This document shows positions 1-13,166 of a DNA stretch of 22,664 nucleotides, piece by piece. The stretch is from positions 1-22,664 of the IMG/VR virus record IMGVR_UViG_3300034111_001212; one strand, 5' to 3'. Source of the DNA: a virus. Each line of letters starts with the position of its first letter. Position 1 is the first letter of the stretch. The notes under the pieces were generated by a model that was not told the origin of the DNA, made no database searches, and was given only the letters and a program-made list of their open reading frames with translations. The position numbers were made by a program, and so were the translations under genes.

Positions 1-721
1 TGTGCCATTCAAACTCCACCCATGTCGCTCCCGTGCCGTTGGGAACCGACAGCGCAGGGATTCCCCATTGATGCCATGTGGCTGCGTCGATCTGGCCCTC
101 GCAGAGCAGGATTGTCTTGGAACGGTAGCTCGACTCAGGAACGGCTTGCCATCCAAAAAGGCTCGGAGCGCAATCCTTGTCCTGCCACACCTTCTTTTTC
201 TCGCCCAGCGTCCGATATGAGCGGTTGATGATCTCGCCAGCCGGAGAGATGCACGGGAAAACAATGGCCTTCCGCTCTGTGTCGATCTCGATTTTTAGCC
301 TCTCGATGATATCCGGCTTCAGCCTCCGAGTTTGAGTCAACCAAGCGTAGGCGCGACCGTTTGGTGATGGCGCTTCAGACTTAATCGCGGGAGCATGGCC
401 GTAAACCCGCTTCTCATGCTGTCTGACAGGCTGGGAGATGCCAAGGTATGTCCTCACCGCAGAAACGGCCTCCCCCGCTGAAATCGCTCGAGAGAGACGC
501 CAGAGGTCCACAAGATCGCCGTGGTCATCGGTCGCCCAATCTCTCCACTGCCCTGCGTGTCCTCCCGTCATCGTGAGCTTGAGCGAATCACCTGGTGCGC
601 CTGACAGGTCGCCGCAGATCCACTCGCTGCCGTGACGCCTGCCACCGGGGAGGAGCATTGGCGCAAGCTCCTCAATCCTGCCGACGAGTTGCTCGGAGAG
701 GTCTGAGACGGTTAGAAGCAT
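1..721 (-). CDS. DNA primase with TOPRIM domain (primase/helicase type), C-terminus cut by window edge
   Basis: Reading the minus strand from the ATG at 721 gives 240 codons without a stop up to the left edge, so only the N-terminal part is present. Residues about 30-75 (W-ICGDLSG-PGDSL ... GQWRDWATDDHGDLVDLW) have the layout of the N-terminal template-binding domain of phage TOPRIM primases and Twinkle-like primase-helicases. Residues 204-232 (ILLCEGQIDAATW ... ALSVPNGTGA) form the start of a TOPRIM fold, with the EG-x-ID motif and the PNG turn. It would make RNA primers at the phage replication fork; a helicase domain may follow outside the window. The start overlaps the end of the replisome-organiser-like gene by 10 bases, which suggests coupled translation and a shared replication role. 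The TOPRIM call is firm from the sequence; the helicase half is inference. Confidence 0.85.
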   Translation of the reverse strand, partial: MLLTVSDLSEQLVGRIEELAPMLLPGGRRHGSEWICGDLSGAPGDSLKLTMTGGHAGQWRDWATDDHGDLVDLWRLSRAISAGEAVSAVRTYLGISQPVRQHEKRVYGHAPAIKSEAPSPNGRAYAWLTQTRRLKPDIIERLKIEIDTERKAIVFPCISPAGEIINRSYRTLGEKKKVWQDKDCAPSLFGWQAVPESSYRSKTILLCEGQIDAATWHQWGIPALSVPNGTGATWVEFEWH

Positions 722-1536
722 CCGGCCTCCTCTTTTTCGATTTCTTCGTCGGTCCAGTAATCTGGGTGATCTCCCGCCGCCTCTCGTGCCTCGGCCTCCT
801 TCAGCCGCAGCAGCTTCGCCATGAGGTCGTCCTCTTCTTCGGGGGCCGTCTCAGCGGCGGATTGCGCTCTTGGCCATTCCGGCTCGTAATCAGACGGGCT
901 TTTCTGGCTGGGCATGTAGCCCGATGCCTTCCACGCCCTGACGGTCGATTTCCAGCATGCGATCTTTTTGCCTCCGTTGGTCCAGTCATTGCCCTCAAAT
1001 TTGTTCCATGTCGCCTCGGCATCGCGAGGGTAAAGGCCAACCTCTTGGAGGAAGGCATCAAAGTCCTCGCGGGTTTGTGGGCGAGCCTTGCTCGCTCTCT
1101 TCACTTCACTTCCATTCCCTTCCCTTCTATTCCCTTCCTTCTTCGTCACTTGGGTGTCACCTGCCTGACAGTTGCCTGACAGTTGGGTGTCACTTGCCTG
1201 ACACTCCATCCACTTGACCTTGGTAATGAAGAACTTAAAGGCTTCCTTGAACCAAGATTCCGGCGCTCTTGTCTTCACTGCCATTGCTCGGGCTGTCAGG
1301 GGAGTGCCATCCTCCCGCACAAGGCTGCCACGCTCCTGACACTTGGATGCCACCTGCAAAATCAAAACCCACGCGGCGAACAATTCGGCGGCGTTTTCCT
1401 GCTCCATGACGGTCGCAAAACCCTCGCCGTCGTGCTTGTTGGGAACACAAACCCAGCGCAGATTCTCAACCGTTCGGGATCGGTTGTTTTCAAAATGCCT
1501 TTGCCAATCCTTGATTTTGTAAATCGGGTCACTCAT
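712..1536 (-). CDS. Replisome organiser / replication initiator-like protein
   Basis: 274 residues. The N-terminal about 100 residues (LRWVCVPNKHDGEGFATVM ... AAWVLILQVASK, then RGSLV-EDGTPLTARAMAVKTRAPESWFKEA) look like the winged-helix domain of phage replisome organisers, which bind the origin and recruit the helicase loader. A basic, low-complexity linker follows (about 110-150, rich in K, R, G, E), encoded by the iteron-like repeats and the purine/pyrimidine tract. A C-terminal domain (about 155-215, REDFDAFLQEVGLYPRDAEATWNKFEGNDWTNGG) resembles the small helical domain found at the end of many phage replication proteins. The tail is acidic. It lies between HNH and primase genes, overlapping both ends by a few bases. 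Origin binding inside its own gene is inferred by analogy with lambda O. The family was recognised by pattern only. Confidence 0.65.
   Translation of the reverse strand: MSDPIYKIKDWQRHFENNRSRTVENLRWVCVPNKHDGEGFATVMEQENAAELFAAWVLILQVASKCQERGSLVREDGTPLTARAMAVKTRAPESWFKEAFKFFITKVKWMECQASDTQLSGNCQAGDTQVTKKEGNRREGNGSEVKRASKARPQTREDFDAFLQEVGLYPRDAEATWNKFEGNDWTNGGKKIACWKSTVRAWKASGYMPSQKSPSDYEPEWPRAQSAAETAPEEEDDLMAKLLRLKEAEAREAAGDHPDYWTDEEIEKEEAGCF
1092..1144 (+). other. Pyrimidine tract next to the iteron-like repeats
   Basis: On the plus strand this stretch is almost pure C and T, broken only by a few A and one G, and runs for about 50 bases inside the replisome-organiser gene. The minus (coding) strand reads as purines encoding K, E, G, N and R. 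It directly abuts the repeats at 1149-1203. Strand-asymmetric tracts beside iterons are typical of phage origins such as lambda ori, where they help melting; that role here is inference. Confidence 0.5.
1149..1203. repeat. Iteron-like repeats, candidate replication origin
   Basis: Two copies of the dyad TGTCA-N6-TGACA lie at 1155-1170 (TGTCACCTGCCTGACA) and 1188-1203 (TGTCACTTGCCTGACA), each preceded by TTGGG. Between them is a half copy, TTGCCTGACA, at 1172-1181. The three CCTGACA elements are spaced 11 and 22 bases apart, about one and two helical turns, so bound proteins would sit on one face of the DNA. They lie inside the replisome-organiser gene and encode the repeated peptides CQASDTQ and CQAGDTQ. 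Position, phasing and the adjacent pyrimidine tract fit an origin like that in lambda O. Alternatively this is a protein-level repeat in a linker. Confidence 0.5.
1335..1357. repeat. Degenerate outlying copy of the iteron-like repeat
   Basis: This 23-base segment matches the repeat segment 1175-1197 at 19 of 23 positions (CCTGACA-TTGG-TG-CAC-TGC). It lies about 130 bases to the right of the main repeats and still inside the replisome-organiser gene. A single TGTCAGG, the same core in the other orientation, is at 1294-1300. It supports a spread cluster of binding sites rather than a chance coding repeat, but the evidence is modest. Confidence 0.35.
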
Positions 1537-1952
1537 TTGGTTGCCTCCTTTTCGATTAGGTGAAACAGCCGGGATTGCAGCGGGACAATGGCAAGCTCCA
1601 TTTCATCGCAAGCTGACAAAAACCGCTTACTCGCGACCTCAATCCATCGAATCAAGGTTTTGCTGTCGTTTGCGAGTCGGGCCTGCGTCACGGCCTTGTA
1701 GAATGACTCCACAAGGGGCGGCATGCTCTCAAGGTTGCCTTCGTGCATCGCGGTGTGGCAATCCTCGCAGAGCGTCACTAGGTCGCGGGAATCTGCGTCC
1801 CATGGATTTTGGCCAGTGTATTGCTTGTGATGAACCGCAAGGGTTGAGTCTTGAGAAAAGCACAATCGGCATTTCCAATCGTCGCGATCCATGACTTCAA
1901 GCCGGACCTTCTGCCATCGCGGATCCTTGAGTTTCTCAGAATAGTTTTTCAT
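1533..1952 (-). CDS. HNH endonuclease
   Basis: 139 residues from the ATG at 1952. Residues about 26-75 form an HNH zinc-ribbon nuclease: CRLC, then LAVHHKQYTG-NPWD with the catalytic HH pair, then DLVTLCEDCHTAMH. The two Cys pairs should bind structural zinc and the His residues the catalytic metal. The start KNYSEKLKDPRWQ is typical of a widespread stand-alone HNH family. The C-terminal about 65 residues are helical and of unknown role. A GTG further upstream (1976) is in frame but sits inside the strong hairpin of the preceding structured RNA, so ATG 1952 was chosen. The only Shine-Dalgarno-like sequence, GAGGG at 1966-1970, is paired in that hairpin, so expression may be conditional. The gene overlaps the replisome-organiser start by 4 bases. 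It could be a homing-type or a packaging-related nuclease; the sequence does not decide. Confidence 0.85.
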   Translation of the reverse strand: MKNYSEKLKDPRWQKVRLEVMDRDDWKCRLCFSQDSTLAVHHKQYTGQNPWDADSRDLVTLCEDCHTAMHEGNLESMPPLVESFYKAVTQARLANDSKTLIRWIEVASKRFLSACDEMELAIVPLQSRLFHLIEKEATK

Positions 1953-1958
1953 AGGCAC

Positions 1959-2027
1959 AAAAAAGCCCTCGCCCACCCATCACGGTCAGACCTGGCGAAT
2001 ACACCAGCGCGATGGGGGGACGAGGAC
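1959..2027 (-). terminator. Strong intrinsic terminator-like hairpin overlapping the HNH ribosome-binding region
   Basis: Minus-strand stem 2027-2008 against 1984-1965: 19 of 20 positions pair, with one C-U mismatch, and it is GC-rich. The loop is 23 nt with its own small hairpin, followed directly by U6 (1964-1959). It should stop transcription coming from the helicase-methyltransferase gene or end the structured RNA. Seven bases after the U-run lies the HNH start codon, and the 3' arm carries the only GAGGG upstream of it. Read-through and an opened stem would therefore be needed for HNH expression in this transcript. Confidence 0.75.
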
Positions 2028-2080
2028 TGTCTGAAGGTATTCATTTCTACGGGTCTGACTCCGTGCCGATACGGTCGGCA
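1959..2080 (-). ncRNA. Structured RNA, probable C4-like phage antisense RNA
   Basis: Read on the minus strand, the gap between the helicase-methyltransferase stop and the HNH start folds compactly. There is a 6-bp hairpin at 2080-2064 (TGCCGA, loop, TCGGCA), then a short hairpin ACGG/CCGT whose loop holds GTCAGAC. Next comes a single-stranded segment with AATGAATACC. A very strong stem follows, pairing 2027-2008 with 1984-1965 (19 of 20 positions, counting G-U), whose loop contains a second hairpin (CTGGTG/CGCCAG) and GGTCTGAC. GTCAGACC (2059-2052) and GGTCTGAC (1992-1985) are perfectly complementary, allowing a kissing contact, pseudoknot or alternative pairing. Six U residues end it (1964-1959). 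Layout and sequence recall the C4 antisense RNA of P1/P7-type phages, from memory. The structure is directly visible; the family name is moderately sure. Confidence 0.6.
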
Positions 2081-2114
2081 TCTTTAGGCTCAACAAAATG
2101 AGTTCGTTTCGCAA

Positions 2115-4316
2115 CTAGAAAAGCTCAGTCTGGAGCTTTGCCCCGGCCAAATTCTCGCAAGCTTGCTTAAAATAGCTTTCCTTGAGTTCGGATCCGACAA
2201 ATTGCCGGTCCAAAGTAAGCGCTCCGACACCCTCGCTTCCAATGCCCGTAAATGGCGAGAAAACCAGATCGCCGGGATTGCTCCAAAGCTCAATCGCTCG
2301 CTCAATCACATCAAGCTGCAACGGGCAGATGTGTTTTTCGTCTTTGTGATCGCGAGCGCCATCTCGGTTGAGAACGCGGCCTTGATCGACCGTCATCCAA
2401 ACCGGAGATGCGACTTCCTGCCACCACGAAACCGGATATTTGTTTCGGTCTTTAGTGATCGGCTTTGGATTCTCACCTGGCGCCCGAAACACCAAAAGAT
2501 AATCCGGCGCTCCTACTCTCGATCCAGCCGAATCGGTGCAAAGCGTCTTGTGAAGAAGCCCATGGGCCTTTGTCCTCTGCATCTCGGTGACTGGGTTTTT
2601 CCAAATCGTGACTCGCGCGTGAAGGGTAAAGCCGTGCTTCCAAAAAGCTCTGATAATCTCGCCAGAGAAGTCTTGAAAGCCGATGTAGCCGTGCTTCCAT
2701 TTCGTGGCGAGAAGATCAACGCAATGCACGGCCACCTCGCGACCTGGAACAACGATCCGCGCCAGTTCGGCGATCAGAATCTCGAAATGCTTCGTGAACT
2801 CATCAAGGTCGTTGCAATTGCCCATGTCTTGCAAATCGTCCGAATAGGTGAACAGATCTGCAAAGGGTGGCGAGAAGACTGAGAAGTCCACCGAAGCATC
2901 CGGCAATGATTTGGCAACGCGAACGCAATCGCCGTGATAAACAGTCCAGCCTTCTCCTTGTCTCTTTTCGATATCGGTTTTCATTGTTAGTTCTTTTGTC
3001 CCTTCGCGGAATGCTGCCGCTGCAATTTTCATGCTTTCTTGCATTTCAGAGTGTTGGTTGATTTTGCGTGCTATTGTCCGCATGATTGCGCCCTCGGTCG
3101 TTGCGTGAACAACGTAAGCGTTTACTTCGCGAGTCTGTCCAAAACGATAGGAGCGCCTCAGCGCCTGGTAGAAGTCCTCGAAAGAATAGGACAGTCCAAC
3201 AAAGGCGATGTTTCGACAATGCTGCCAATTCATGCCATACCCAAAGATTCCGCTTTTGGAAATCAGAACGCGAATCTTACCATCAACAAAATCAGCGGCA
3301 GCCGTTTCTTTTTTCTTGGCTGTATCAGATCCGCGAATCTCGACCGCATCAGGAATTGACTTTGCAAGCCTTTCGCTTTCGTCGTTGGTATTGCACCATA
3401 CAATCCAAGATTCATCTGATGCATTGACAAGATCGGCCACGGCCCTCACTCGAGCCTCGGCCGTCATTCGCATCTCTTTATGCATCGTAGTCGCCGATAA
3501 GGTTGCGTTGCGGAAAAGCTCGCCATCGTTGGCCTCTCTCGTTTCATCAACATCAACGATGACGGTCTGCAGGTTGAGATTTGGCAGCGAGTATCCCGCG
3601 TCATCATAGCCAATGTCGGACGGCTTTGAGACGCATGCGGCCCATGACGCTACCCACTTCCAAAACTCGCCTTCAGCGTGCTTCTTCAATCGCCAATCGC
3701 CAGTGTTGAATGTGTCGTTGATGAAGAACGTGCAAAGCATTTGTTGCGGAGTGCAAACGCCAAGAAAATCAGCGTGCTGGCCAAACTCGGTATAATCGTT
3801 TGGCGACGGGGTAGCAGTGCATGCAAGCTTGTATGGCGTTTCGGCGAATCGCTCAGTCAAACGATGTCGAGTCTTCCCGGTAAAGCTTTTCAGAATGCTC
3901 GACTCATCGAGGACGACTCCGCCAAAGTCCACATAATCGAAATTGTCGAGCTTCTCGTAATTCGTGATCCAGATGCCTTCGCCGGAAATCTGATCGCCGG
4001 ATTCGACGACTTGAGCGGTGATCCCAAAATGCTCAGCCTCGCGTGCTGTTTGAGCAGCCACTGAAAGCGGCGTTAGAATCAGGATCGGCTTTCCAGTATG
4101 TTGCCTGACCTGGTGCGCCCACTCAAGTTGCTGGATCGTTTTACCAAGGCCGCAATCCTCGAAAAGCGCGGCGCGACCTTTCTTCACAGCCCATCTGACA
4201 ACGTGCGTTTGCCAATCGAAAAGCGGCGCAGTAATTGGCATAGGATCAAATCCGCTCGGCTTTGCGTGCTTGGTTTTCGCCTCAATAAAGGCGTCATATT
4301 CCTCTAAATTCTTCAT
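2115..4316 (-). CDS. SF2 helicase fused to DNA methyltransferase
   Basis: 733 residues. The N-terminal part, about 25-440, is an SNF2/SF2-type helicase: Walker A EDCGLGKT (53-60), DESS (137-140), TATP (167-170) and motif VI QALRRSYRFGQ (384-394). The C-terminal part, about 455-733, is an amino-methyltransferase of beta order: target motif SPPF (482-485) precedes the SAM-binding FSPFTGIGSEG (686-696). SPPF is commoner in N4-cytosine enzymes, but N6-adenine cannot be excluded. No nuclease domain is seen, so it is a modification or antirestriction enzyme rather than a full type III/ISP restriction enzyme; helicase-methyltransferase fusions are known in phages (compare P1 DarB, which is much larger). 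M445 at the domain joint has leader-like sequence before it (ACAAAAGAAC), suggesting a former or alternative start. The start at 4316 is supported by AAAAAAGAG just upstream. Confidence 0.9.
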   Translation of the reverse strand: MKNLEEYDAFIEAKTKHAKPSGFDPMPITAPLFDWQTHVVRWAVKKGRAALFEDCGLGKTIQQLEWAHQVRQHTGKPILILTPLSVAAQTAREAEHFGITAQVVESGDQISGEGIWITNYEKLDNFDYVDFGGVVLDESSILKSFTGKTRHRLTERFAETPYKLACTATPSPNDYTEFGQHADFLGVCTPQQMLCTFFINDTFNTGDWRLKKHAEGEFWKWVASWAACVSKPSDIGYDDAGYSLPNLNLQTVIVDVDETREANDGELFRNATLSATTMHKEMRMTAEARVRAVADLVNASDESWIVWCNTNDESERLAKSIPDAVEIRGSDTAKKKETAAADFVDGKIRVLISKSGIFGYGMNWQHCRNIAFVGLSYSFEDFYQALRRSYRFGQTREVNAYVVHATTEGAIMRTIARKINQHSEMQESMKIAAAAFREGTKELTMKTDIEKRQGEGWTVYHGDCVRVAKSLPDASVDFSVFSPPFADLFTYSDDLQDMGNCNDLDEFTKHFEILIAELARIVVPGREVAVHCVDLLATKWKHGYIGFQDFSGEIIRAFWKHGFTLHARVTIWKNPVTEMQRTKAHGLLHKTLCTDSAGSRVGAPDYLLVFRAPGENPKPITKDRNKYPVSWWQEVASPVWMTVDQGRVLNRDGARDHKDEKHICPLQLDVIERAIELWSNPGDLVFSPFTGIGSEGVGALTLDRQFVGSELKESYFKQACENLAGAKLQTELF
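2982..3000 (-). promoter_or_regulatory. Possible internal translation start of the methyltransferase half
   Basis: At the joint between helicase and methyltransferase the coding strand reads GGGACAAAAGAACTAACA and then an in-frame ATG (2984-2982), followed by AAAACC. This resembles the A-rich leaders before the helicase, RecT and 11088-11498 genes and the MKN-type starts of two of them. It may be a working internal start producing a free methyltransferase of about 289 residues, or a relic of two once-separate genes. Confidence 0.35.
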
Positions 4317-12174: not shown

Positions 12175-13166
12175 CGGCCTTCCAGCATGTTGCCCAGCAG
12201 GGAGCGCCCTTCCCAGATTCCCACATTGATGTGGAGGAACTCGCCTGATTTGGCAATGACTTGGTAGCCGTATCCATGCGACCAGCCCGTGGGATCAGAG
12301 TGCCGCCATAGCGGTTGACGTTGGCAAAGGCAGCCGGGATTCCAAGCTTTGACAAGGCCGACGCCGGGAAGGACTCGCGTGGCCGAATCTTCTCGATGGG
12401 TATGAGCGAAGACCACATTTCCGGCGGTTCTCGATACGGAGTCGCTCGCGGCGTTTTTGCTGCCAGAAAGCTCGTGGACAAAGAAAATCTTGCCCATCTT
12501 GATCCAGCCTGGTGGAAGGCCGGGAACGTGAGTCTCGGAGCGCCGGTAGTAAATTATGCCGCGCTCTTTGAGTTTGAGGAGAAACTCTGGCGCATTCAAC
12601 TGCCGCAGGAACTCAGCATCTCGCGAGTTCGACATCGTCTCATCAATCACCCAACGCTCGACTCGGTCCTCGTGGTTGCCCTCGATGAAATGAATCTGCG
12701 CGGAAGGCGCGGCATCTTGGAGCTGGTCGAGAAACCAGTTGCCATGCGCGATGTCATCTTGGTAGCTGTAGGTCGTCTGGGCGATGTAATTGGCCGTGTG
12801 ATGCTTGGCAAGGAAGCCGCCACATTCCACGATGTCACCGTTGAGGATGATCTCATCCGGCGAGAGTCTTCGCACATCGCCCAAGAAAGCCTCGACGGCA
12901 GGGCGATCCATCATGGATCCGTGGACATCGTTAGCGATGAGCCTGACCGTCTCGGTTTTTACCTTCGGCCTCGGTTTGTATTCGTTTTTAACGGGAAACT
13001 TTGCCGCTCGCAGCGCATTGTATTCGTCCAGCGCATCGTCTCGATCTTTGCGAAGGGCTGAAGCTTCGGCTCGGGCCTTGGCAAGTTCCGCCTGCGCCTT
13101 CACAACGCGATTCATCGCGTCGGAGTCTGAGACAAGCCTGTCGGAAAGATTGATTTCGTCGCTCAT
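12171..13166 (-). CDS. Calcineurin-type metallophosphoesterase
   Basis: 331 residues. The N-terminal 15-60 is a coiled coil (VVKAQAELAKARAEASALRKDRDDALDEYN). The metallophosphoesterase core follows with all signature motifs: NDVHGSMMD (D-x-H), LNGDIVECGG (GD), IEGNHEDRVERW (GNHE) and VVFAHTHRED (GHTH-like, here AHTH). It should hydrolyse phosphoesters with two metals, perhaps on nucleic acid or nucleotides; the substrate is not visible. The ATG at 13166 follows the HTH gene stop by 3 bases. Such phosphoesterases with an N-terminal coiled coil recur in phage genomes next to small HTH proteins. Confidence 0.88.
   Translation of the reverse strand: MSDEINLSDRLVSDSDAMNRVVKAQAELAKARAEASALRKDRDDALDEYNALRAAKFPVKNEYKPRPKVKTETVRLIANDVHGSMMDRPAVEAFLGDVRRLSPDEIILNGDIVECGGFLAKHHTANYIAQTTYSYQDDIAHGNWFLDQLQDAAPSAQIHFIEGNHEDRVERWVIDETMSNSRDAEFLRQLNAPEFLLKLKERGIIYYRRSETHVPGLPPGWIKMGKIFFVHELSGSKNAASDSVSRTAGNVVFAHTHREDSATRVLPGVGLVKAWNPGCLCQRQPLWRHSDPTGWSHGYGYQVIAKSGEFLHINVGIWEGRSLLGNMLEGR

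Follow-up and report, generated by a model that had tools for sequence, protein, structure and literature searches.

A pseudoknotted terminator RNA ahead of phage replication genes is a candidate leader attenuator

Between a helicase–methyltransferase gene and an HNH endonuclease gene, the virus record IMGVR_UViG_3300034111_001212 (the window, 22,664 bases, analysed over its whole length) carries a short intergenic stretch that would fold, if transcribed from the minus strand, into a compact RNA ending in a run of U residues. What is such an RNA doing at this place, and which of its neighbours does it serve? A sequence-only reading had likened it to the C4 antisense RNAs of phages and had seen in it an immunity-type or switching RNA with two possible conformations, set unusually before an HNH gene. 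Here we describe its anatomy, its conservation and its genomic surroundings, and propose tentatively that it acts as an attenuator in the leader of a DNA-replication operon.

Anatomy of the leader RNA

The leader RNA spans positions 2079–1959 of the minus strand, about 120 bases. Read 5′ to 3′ on that strand, a promoter-like block is followed by a 5′ hairpin (P0), a first pseudoknot strand (PK1), an AUG-bearing linker, a stem that encloses both an apical hairpin and the partner strand PK1′, and a U6 run. The parts are as follows.

About 2085..2101, minus strand: promoter-like block TCATTTTGTTGAGCC(T), candidate promoter or transcription-start region; kept in all close homologues
2065..2079, minus strand: 5′ hairpin P0, GCCGA-CCGTA-TCGGC; helix 1 of the 11-sequence alignment, with 96.4% of cells paired
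2052..2059, minus strand: pseudoknot strand PK1, GUCAGACC; covaries with 1985–1992
1949..2044, minus strand: putative small leader open reading frame (ORF) of 31 codons, MNTFRQSSSPHRAGVFARSDRDGWARAFLCL; its TGA overlaps the HNH ATG
2037..2042, minus strand: linker strand of PK2, GAAUAC, overlapping the small-ORF start codon; covariation in L018, L149, L136, L140 and L170
2008..2028, minus strand: 5′ arm of the terminator stem; fold prediction and homologue alignment
1992..2007, minus strand: apical hairpin CUGG-UGUAUUCG-CCAG; fold and alignment, with pair 105/120 as CG in six sequences and UA in four
1985..1992, minus strand: PK1′, GGUCUGAC, the 3′ bulge that separates the apical hairpin from the stem; complementary to PK1 by the homologue alignment and the structure-first test
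1964..1984, minus strand: 3′ arm of the terminator stem; fold prediction and homologue alignment
1959..1964, minus strand: U6 run, predicted intrinsic-terminator tail; T-runs are kept in homologues

The main stem joins 2028–2008 to 1984–1964 over 21 positions, with 20 pairs and a single C–U mismatch, and the apical loop at 2002–1997 (GUAUUC) supplies the 3′ strand of PK2. The HNH gene starts at the ATG at 1952, and the U-run ends about 10 nt ahead of that start. A diverged homologue, L018, has a hairpin of different sequence (GUCGAAAGAC) at the place of P0. The sequence-only reading had the coordinates, the U6 run, the apical hairpin and the complementarity of 1992–1985 to 2059–2052 right, and its stem is revised only in the number of positions and pairs; the contact between apical loop and linker (PK2), the small ORF and the promoter-like block are new here.

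In the order strand, 5′ arm of the stem, hairpin, complementary strand and 3′ arm, the RNA has the topology of an H-type pseudoknot whose two helices can coexist. Competition with the main stem comes only from a CACG/CGUG extension of PK1, not from the core pseudoknot, and that extension is weakly conserved and missing from L018 and L140. The idea of two competing conformations, which rested on that extension, is therefore unsupported.

Fold energy and covariation

The minus strand folds with −62.2 kcal/mol (z = −4.5), a value that 0 of 200 shuffles equalled, and the plus strand folds less well (−54.7 kcal/mol, z = −2.8). Among viral contigs, 19 loci with HNH relatives were found, and their upstream regions were compared. 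The resulting alignment of 11 sequences comprises the close family, the diverged L018 and L033, which fold alike, and L140 and L149, found by descriptor. Across these homologues, 92.8% of the alignment cells are paired under the leader structure; both sides have changed in 18 pairs (shuffled mean 7.1) and 34 cells (shuffled mean 9.6), 0 of 500 shuffles were as high and every slid control lay far below. Many pairs switch between G–C and G–U, an alternation that would leave an A–C mismatch on the other strand and so fits an RNA of the minus strand only.

Both pseudoknot contacts take part in this pattern. PK1 occurs in the compensatory forms GUCAGAC/GUCUGAC, GUGAGAC/GUCUCAC, GUGAGAU/AUCUCAC and GUCGCA/UGCGAC. 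Close relatives carry one of two haplotypes, GUCAGACC/GGUCUGAC or GUGAGACC/GGUCUCAC, with no mixed combination. PK2, which in the window pairs GAAUAC of the linker with GUAUUC of the apical loop, reappears as CAAUG/CAUUG in L018, AGAUGA/UCAUCU in L149, GAAUGAA/UUCAUUC in L136 and CUAUGAC/GUCAUAG in L170. In the 11 sequences its columns 53–56 are 91% paired with 111–114, and its outer two pairs are only 59% paired, failing in about 40% of the sequences. On this comparative evidence the structure and location of the leader RNA are well supported, and the earlier claim of a compact structured phage RNA with a pseudoknot and a terminator is borne out by the fold energy and by the covariation in 11 homologues.

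Within L003–L020, the PK1 haplotypes are combined with differing upstream genes and HNH variants, which suggests recombination around the leader.

The leader precedes replication genes

Two genes follow the leader in the window.

1533..1952, minus strand: HNH endonuclease gene (phrog_119, E = 8.5e-17), the first full-size gene after the leader; optional
712..1536, minus strand: the gene after HNH, with only a weak PHROG match, to a family of unknown function

In homologous loci, the place of the second gene is taken by replication initiation or primosomal genes, followed by a primase–helicase gene. The HNH gene, which had given the locus its apparent setting, is not the partner of the RNA: HNH is absent from L024, where a primosomal-type gene and DnaB come immediately after the same RNA, and from L033, where a replication initiation gene and a primase–helicase gene do. 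Because the RNA occurs without HNH in these two loci, we regard the HNH gene as optional. An HNH–RNA cassette or HEARO-like unit was rejected on the same loci, and on the frequent occurrence of HNH without the RNA. Replication genes also lie downstream in the diverged loci. Upstream, the gene varies among close homologues while the leader stays conserved; in the window it is the methyltransferase gene, which is co-directional and ends just before the leader.

Two observations concern the neighbours themselves. In the window, a 733-aa ORF at 2115–4316 of the minus strand fuses an SNF2-type helicase domain to an N6/N4 DNA methyltransferase domain. Elsewhere, another small RNA occupies the place before the same HNH family: int-alpA RNA (RF02996) lies directly upstream of it at L172:2911–2979 (Dyella) and L134:2911–2978 (Acidovorax-like), and L078 has a sequence similar to int-alpA RNA without an Rfam match.

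The same architecture without shared sequence

An HNH alignment search gave 80 viral loci and a second alignment gave 49 loci in host genomes; most of the loci sampled were found by way of a single HNH family. Where HNH heads an operon, many of these loci have their parts in the same order, in unrelated sequence. The first, looser descriptors of this order were too permissive (many weak matches; 672 on whole loci) and were replaced by a strict version with matched controls, which scored at least 52 in 12 of 99 HNH-upstream regions versus 40 of 10,690 equal-sized control windows (Fisher P = 3e-14). A structure-first test started from 16 loci with a predicted bulge of 5–10 nt beside an apical hairpin: 11 of the 16 bulges matched their own leader with a score of at least 15, against 13 of 240 matches to the leaders of other loci, some of them relatives (P = 1e-9).

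Trained on the 11 sequences with the pseudoknot left out, a covariance model found four loci that were not in its training set, L136 (E = 4e-10), L118 (9e-5), L096 (2e-4) and L167 (0.003). PK1 complementarity holds in this blind alignment for L136 (UGAGAC/GUCUCA), L118 (GUCGCA/UGCGAC) and L096 (GUGAGAU/AUCUCAC). L167 and L165 show no complementarity at the PK1 columns of that alignment, and their pairing, if real, lies elsewhere. The window-family model had no match in eight host genomes, a search that could not have revealed distant members, whose scores are too low at the scale of a whole genome. In several AT-rich loci the U-runs are imperfect. As far as sequence comparison can tell, the leader architecture is conserved though its sequence is not, and it appears before the replication genes of many unrelated phages. 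With no sequence shared across loci, sequence-based RNA surveys would miss such an element.

Two cultured Bacteroidota phages, chosen by their primase and not by HNH or the RNA, carry the architecture as well. In Tenacibaculum phage JQ the best promoter-plus-pseudoknot score of the genome (64.0; next distinct score 53.5) falls directly before the replication genes, at a TATATTAG promoter followed by AGCATCCTACTT/AGGTAGGATGCT, AACCCA/TGGGTT and T6. The best score in Flavobacterium phage snork6-2 (58.5; next 51.0) has the same position, with TATATTTG, GTGAGACG/CGTCTCAC and T7. In neither phage does the linker between PK1 and the stem hold a start codon. No leader was found before the replication genes of the blind-fetched Pseudomonas phages AF and vB_Pae_U8, Geobacillus virus E2 and Vibrio phages 1.133 and 1.135, nor any match in the genome of phage PJN03, scanned likewise; given these absences, we consider the element common, not general.

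In snork6-2 (L227), a putative and weaker second promoter–pseudoknot–stem element at 12546–12640 (GTCGTCG/CGACGAC, CCACCAA/TTGGTGG) lies directly before the endonuclease gene gp038, so a single phage may carry two.

Promoter and small ORF

A predicted promoter is usually found close ahead of the leader. A Bacteroidota-type motif, TAnnTTT[GA]/TTAG, stands 3–18 nt upstream of PK1 in 13 loci, versus 3.8% of random 24-nt windows, a control picked after the fact. Sigma-70-like promoters lie near PK1 in L136, L021 and L086, and the promoter-like block of the window family fits no known consensus. Within the window phage group, two loci keep this block and have the leader RNA swapped for another short leader. 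At L153:3580–3640 and L154:950–1010 the block CATTTTGTTGAGCC is followed by TTTCCGTAACGCTTCACCGTTACAGTAACGTT in place of the RNA, and the first gene is a different one; this may be an alternative leader with overlapping inverted repeats.

In a table of 31 loci curated by hand and eye, related loci included, every locus has a start codon between PK1 and the stem or at their edge (ATG in 30, GTG in L164). The frame so opened runs through the stem in 19 of the 31 loci, whereas the other two frames are open in 15 of 62 cases (P = 0.0006, the loci being partly related), and it does so through the terminator stem of the window. In eight loci, the window among them, its stop and the next start share an ATGA, and in three loci it is fused in frame to HNH; in L164 it amounts to GTG, one codon and a stop. 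The small peptide is poorly conserved, and the ORF of the window lacks a clear Shine–Dalgarno sequence. Leader peptides upstream of HNH in L077 and L109 share DSxxLxIxGNGK.

A leader gated by ribosome loading?

The gap of about 10 nt that separates the U-run from the next ATG is too short for a promoter, and the genes beyond the predicted intrinsic terminator would therefore depend on read-through. This anatomy leads us to infer a leader attenuator. Because the loops pair upstream of and over the start of the small ORF, we propose a race between ribosome and terminator, and our preferred reading, held tentatively and at slightly less than even confidence, is that the element is a 5′ leader attenuator of the phage DNA-replication operon, gated by ribosome loading on the small ORF. 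Transcription would probably start just upstream of PK1, and in the short nascent RNA the ribosome site would be open. A ribosome that loads would translate through the terminator and block its folding, letting RNA polymerase enter the replication genes, and could itself pass to the first gene by translational coupling. If no ribosome came in time, PK1 and PK2 would seal the site, the stem would form, transcription would stop and an RNA of about 120 nt would be released. On this model, ribosome loading, or a protein or RNA that competes for it, would control whether the replication genes are expressed. It is established that ribosomes can keep intrinsic terminators from acting (PMC4824070, PMC5021804).

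The small ORF is not universal, being missing or vestigial in L164, JQ and snork6-2, so the core function may lie elsewhere than in ribosome gating; these exceptions leave room for a leader triggered by protein or RNA in which the ORF is secondary. One such alternative, unlikely in our judgement, is a leader that works independently of ribosomes, its pseudoknotted terminator being a timing device or the binding site of a phage or host protein, for example an antitermination factor, or an initiator that regulates its own operon by feedback. The same three loci speak for it, retaining promoter, PK1 and terminator without a usable linker ORF, as does the fact that the common denominator of all loci is only the architecture and the place before replication genes. 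However, protein sites usually keep some sequence, and none is kept across loci; the linker start codon found throughout the curated set, in a preferentially open frame, also speaks against this reading.

The terminated RNA might instead accumulate and act in trans on leaders of the same phage as they are being transcribed, as a means of immunity or copy control. Its position at the head of the operon, and the logic of a terminated RNA with a read-through mRNA, are those of P4 CI and IsrK (PMC4825925); the PK1 strands are self-complementary, so that two copies could pair, and the haplotypes GUCAGACC and GUGAGACC in related phages are what specificity types would look like. We nevertheless hold this to be unlikely, since the folded RNA already pairs both strands internally, no separate seqA/seqC-like repeats were found in the 12–22 kb available per phage, and host genomes seldom carry HNH relatives (49 loci in 84,980 species; 3 of 388 and 5 of 395 genomes in two samples), a rarity that argues, indirectly, against a mainly prophage or lysogenic function. 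A broader version, in which a leader class widespread in phages of Bacteroidota, Verrucomicrobiota and other hosts has a released RNA that also serves as a trans-acting immunity or copy-control signal with PK1-haplotype specificity, seems doubtful to us to much the same degree.

That the RNA is simply the terminator of the upstream methyltransferase operon, its loop pairing incidental or serving to stabilize the 3′ end or protect the 5′ end against decay, is more improbable still. The co-directional upstream gene that ends just before the leader would suit it, and a strong stem with U6 suffices for termination. Yet the leader is conserved while upstream genes differ, many loci have promoters between the upstream gene and the leader, the PK1 pairing covaries and recurs out of sample, and the short gap before the next gene leaves the genes beyond in need of read-through. 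A DNA element, such as a replication origin (phage origins often adjoin replication genes, as this element does) or a hairpin acting in single strands, is very improbable given the many conserved G–U pairs possible only in minus-strand RNA, the better fold of that strand, and the flanking promoter and T-run that mark a transcript.

Comparison with known RNAs

C4 RNA (RF01695) resembles the leader in being a phage RNA of similar size with hairpins. The likeness goes no further: its covariance model gave no match at E ≤ 10 in the 251-base stretch, and Rfam none over the window at the gathering cut-off; no a/b target segments were found in the downstream operon (12–22 kb per phage), and there is no linked ant/icd antirepressor operon, the genes downstream being HNH or replication initiation and primase–helicase genes. 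A search of the same 12–22 kb per phage revealed no second site complementary to the loops, and the 7–8-mers of PK1 occur outside the leader RNA as scattered single sites only, unchanged with haplotype. From the sequence-only reading there remains a compact, covarying, pseudoknotted terminator RNA that is probably regulatory, without membership of C4 and without mutually exclusive conformations. Rfam 15 gave no match above its curated cut-offs for the leader RNA of the window, 20 diverged loci and 14 further loci, the sole match in the scan being int-alpA, a different RNA, in L134 and L172.

HDV-like ribozymes have the strand order P1–P2–P3–P1′–P2′, which the leader RNA shares. This identity was rejected: PK1′ abuts the 3′ arm, leaving no J4/2 cytosine, the linker between P1 and P2 is long, and Rfam gives no match.

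In pyrBI-type attenuators, which respond to UTP, a translating ribosome keeps the terminator from forming, as we propose for the present leader. Their leader ORF runs through the terminator; no pseudoknot seals its ribosome site there. In ColIb-P9 (repY–repZ) and the IncB and IncL/M replicons, a leader peptide, a pseudoknot and translational coupling control the replication initiator. There the pseudoknot activates translation of the initiator, whereas the one described here should shut off the leader ORF and go together with termination.

In phage P4, RNA-mediated termination stops the replication genes in lysogens through complementary leader segments (PMC4825925). Premature termination ahead of phage replication genes and complementary leader segments are common to the P4 CI system (seqA, cI, seqC) and the leader. 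CI, however, is a processed antisense RNA that acts on separate repeats, whereas here the 5′ region of the leader would pair with the terminator's own loop in an H-type pseudoknot. IsrK of Gifsy-1, which lies before orf45–anrP, yields a terminated RNA and a read-through mRNA with a small ORF coupled to the next gene and a structure that hides its ribosome site (PMC4825925). The short terminated RNA, the read-through mRNA, the coupled small ORF and the hidden ribosome site all have their predicted counterparts in the leader; in IsrK the ORF follows the terminator and an antirepressor is controlled, whereas here the ORF usually runs through the terminator and replication genes would be controlled. 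Our literature search found no description of the present element; most subscription journals lay outside its coverage, and an earlier description is possible.

Discussion

Few systems are known in which an attenuator precedes the replication genes of a phage, P4 being the standard case. The leader RNA described here would add one architecture, not represented in Rfam, that recurs before the replication operons of very diverse phages. The account we propose for it is a testable one, in which a phage could tie the start of its DNA replication to the supply of ribosomes or to a competing factor, and the cultured phages JQ and snork6-2 make that account directly testable.
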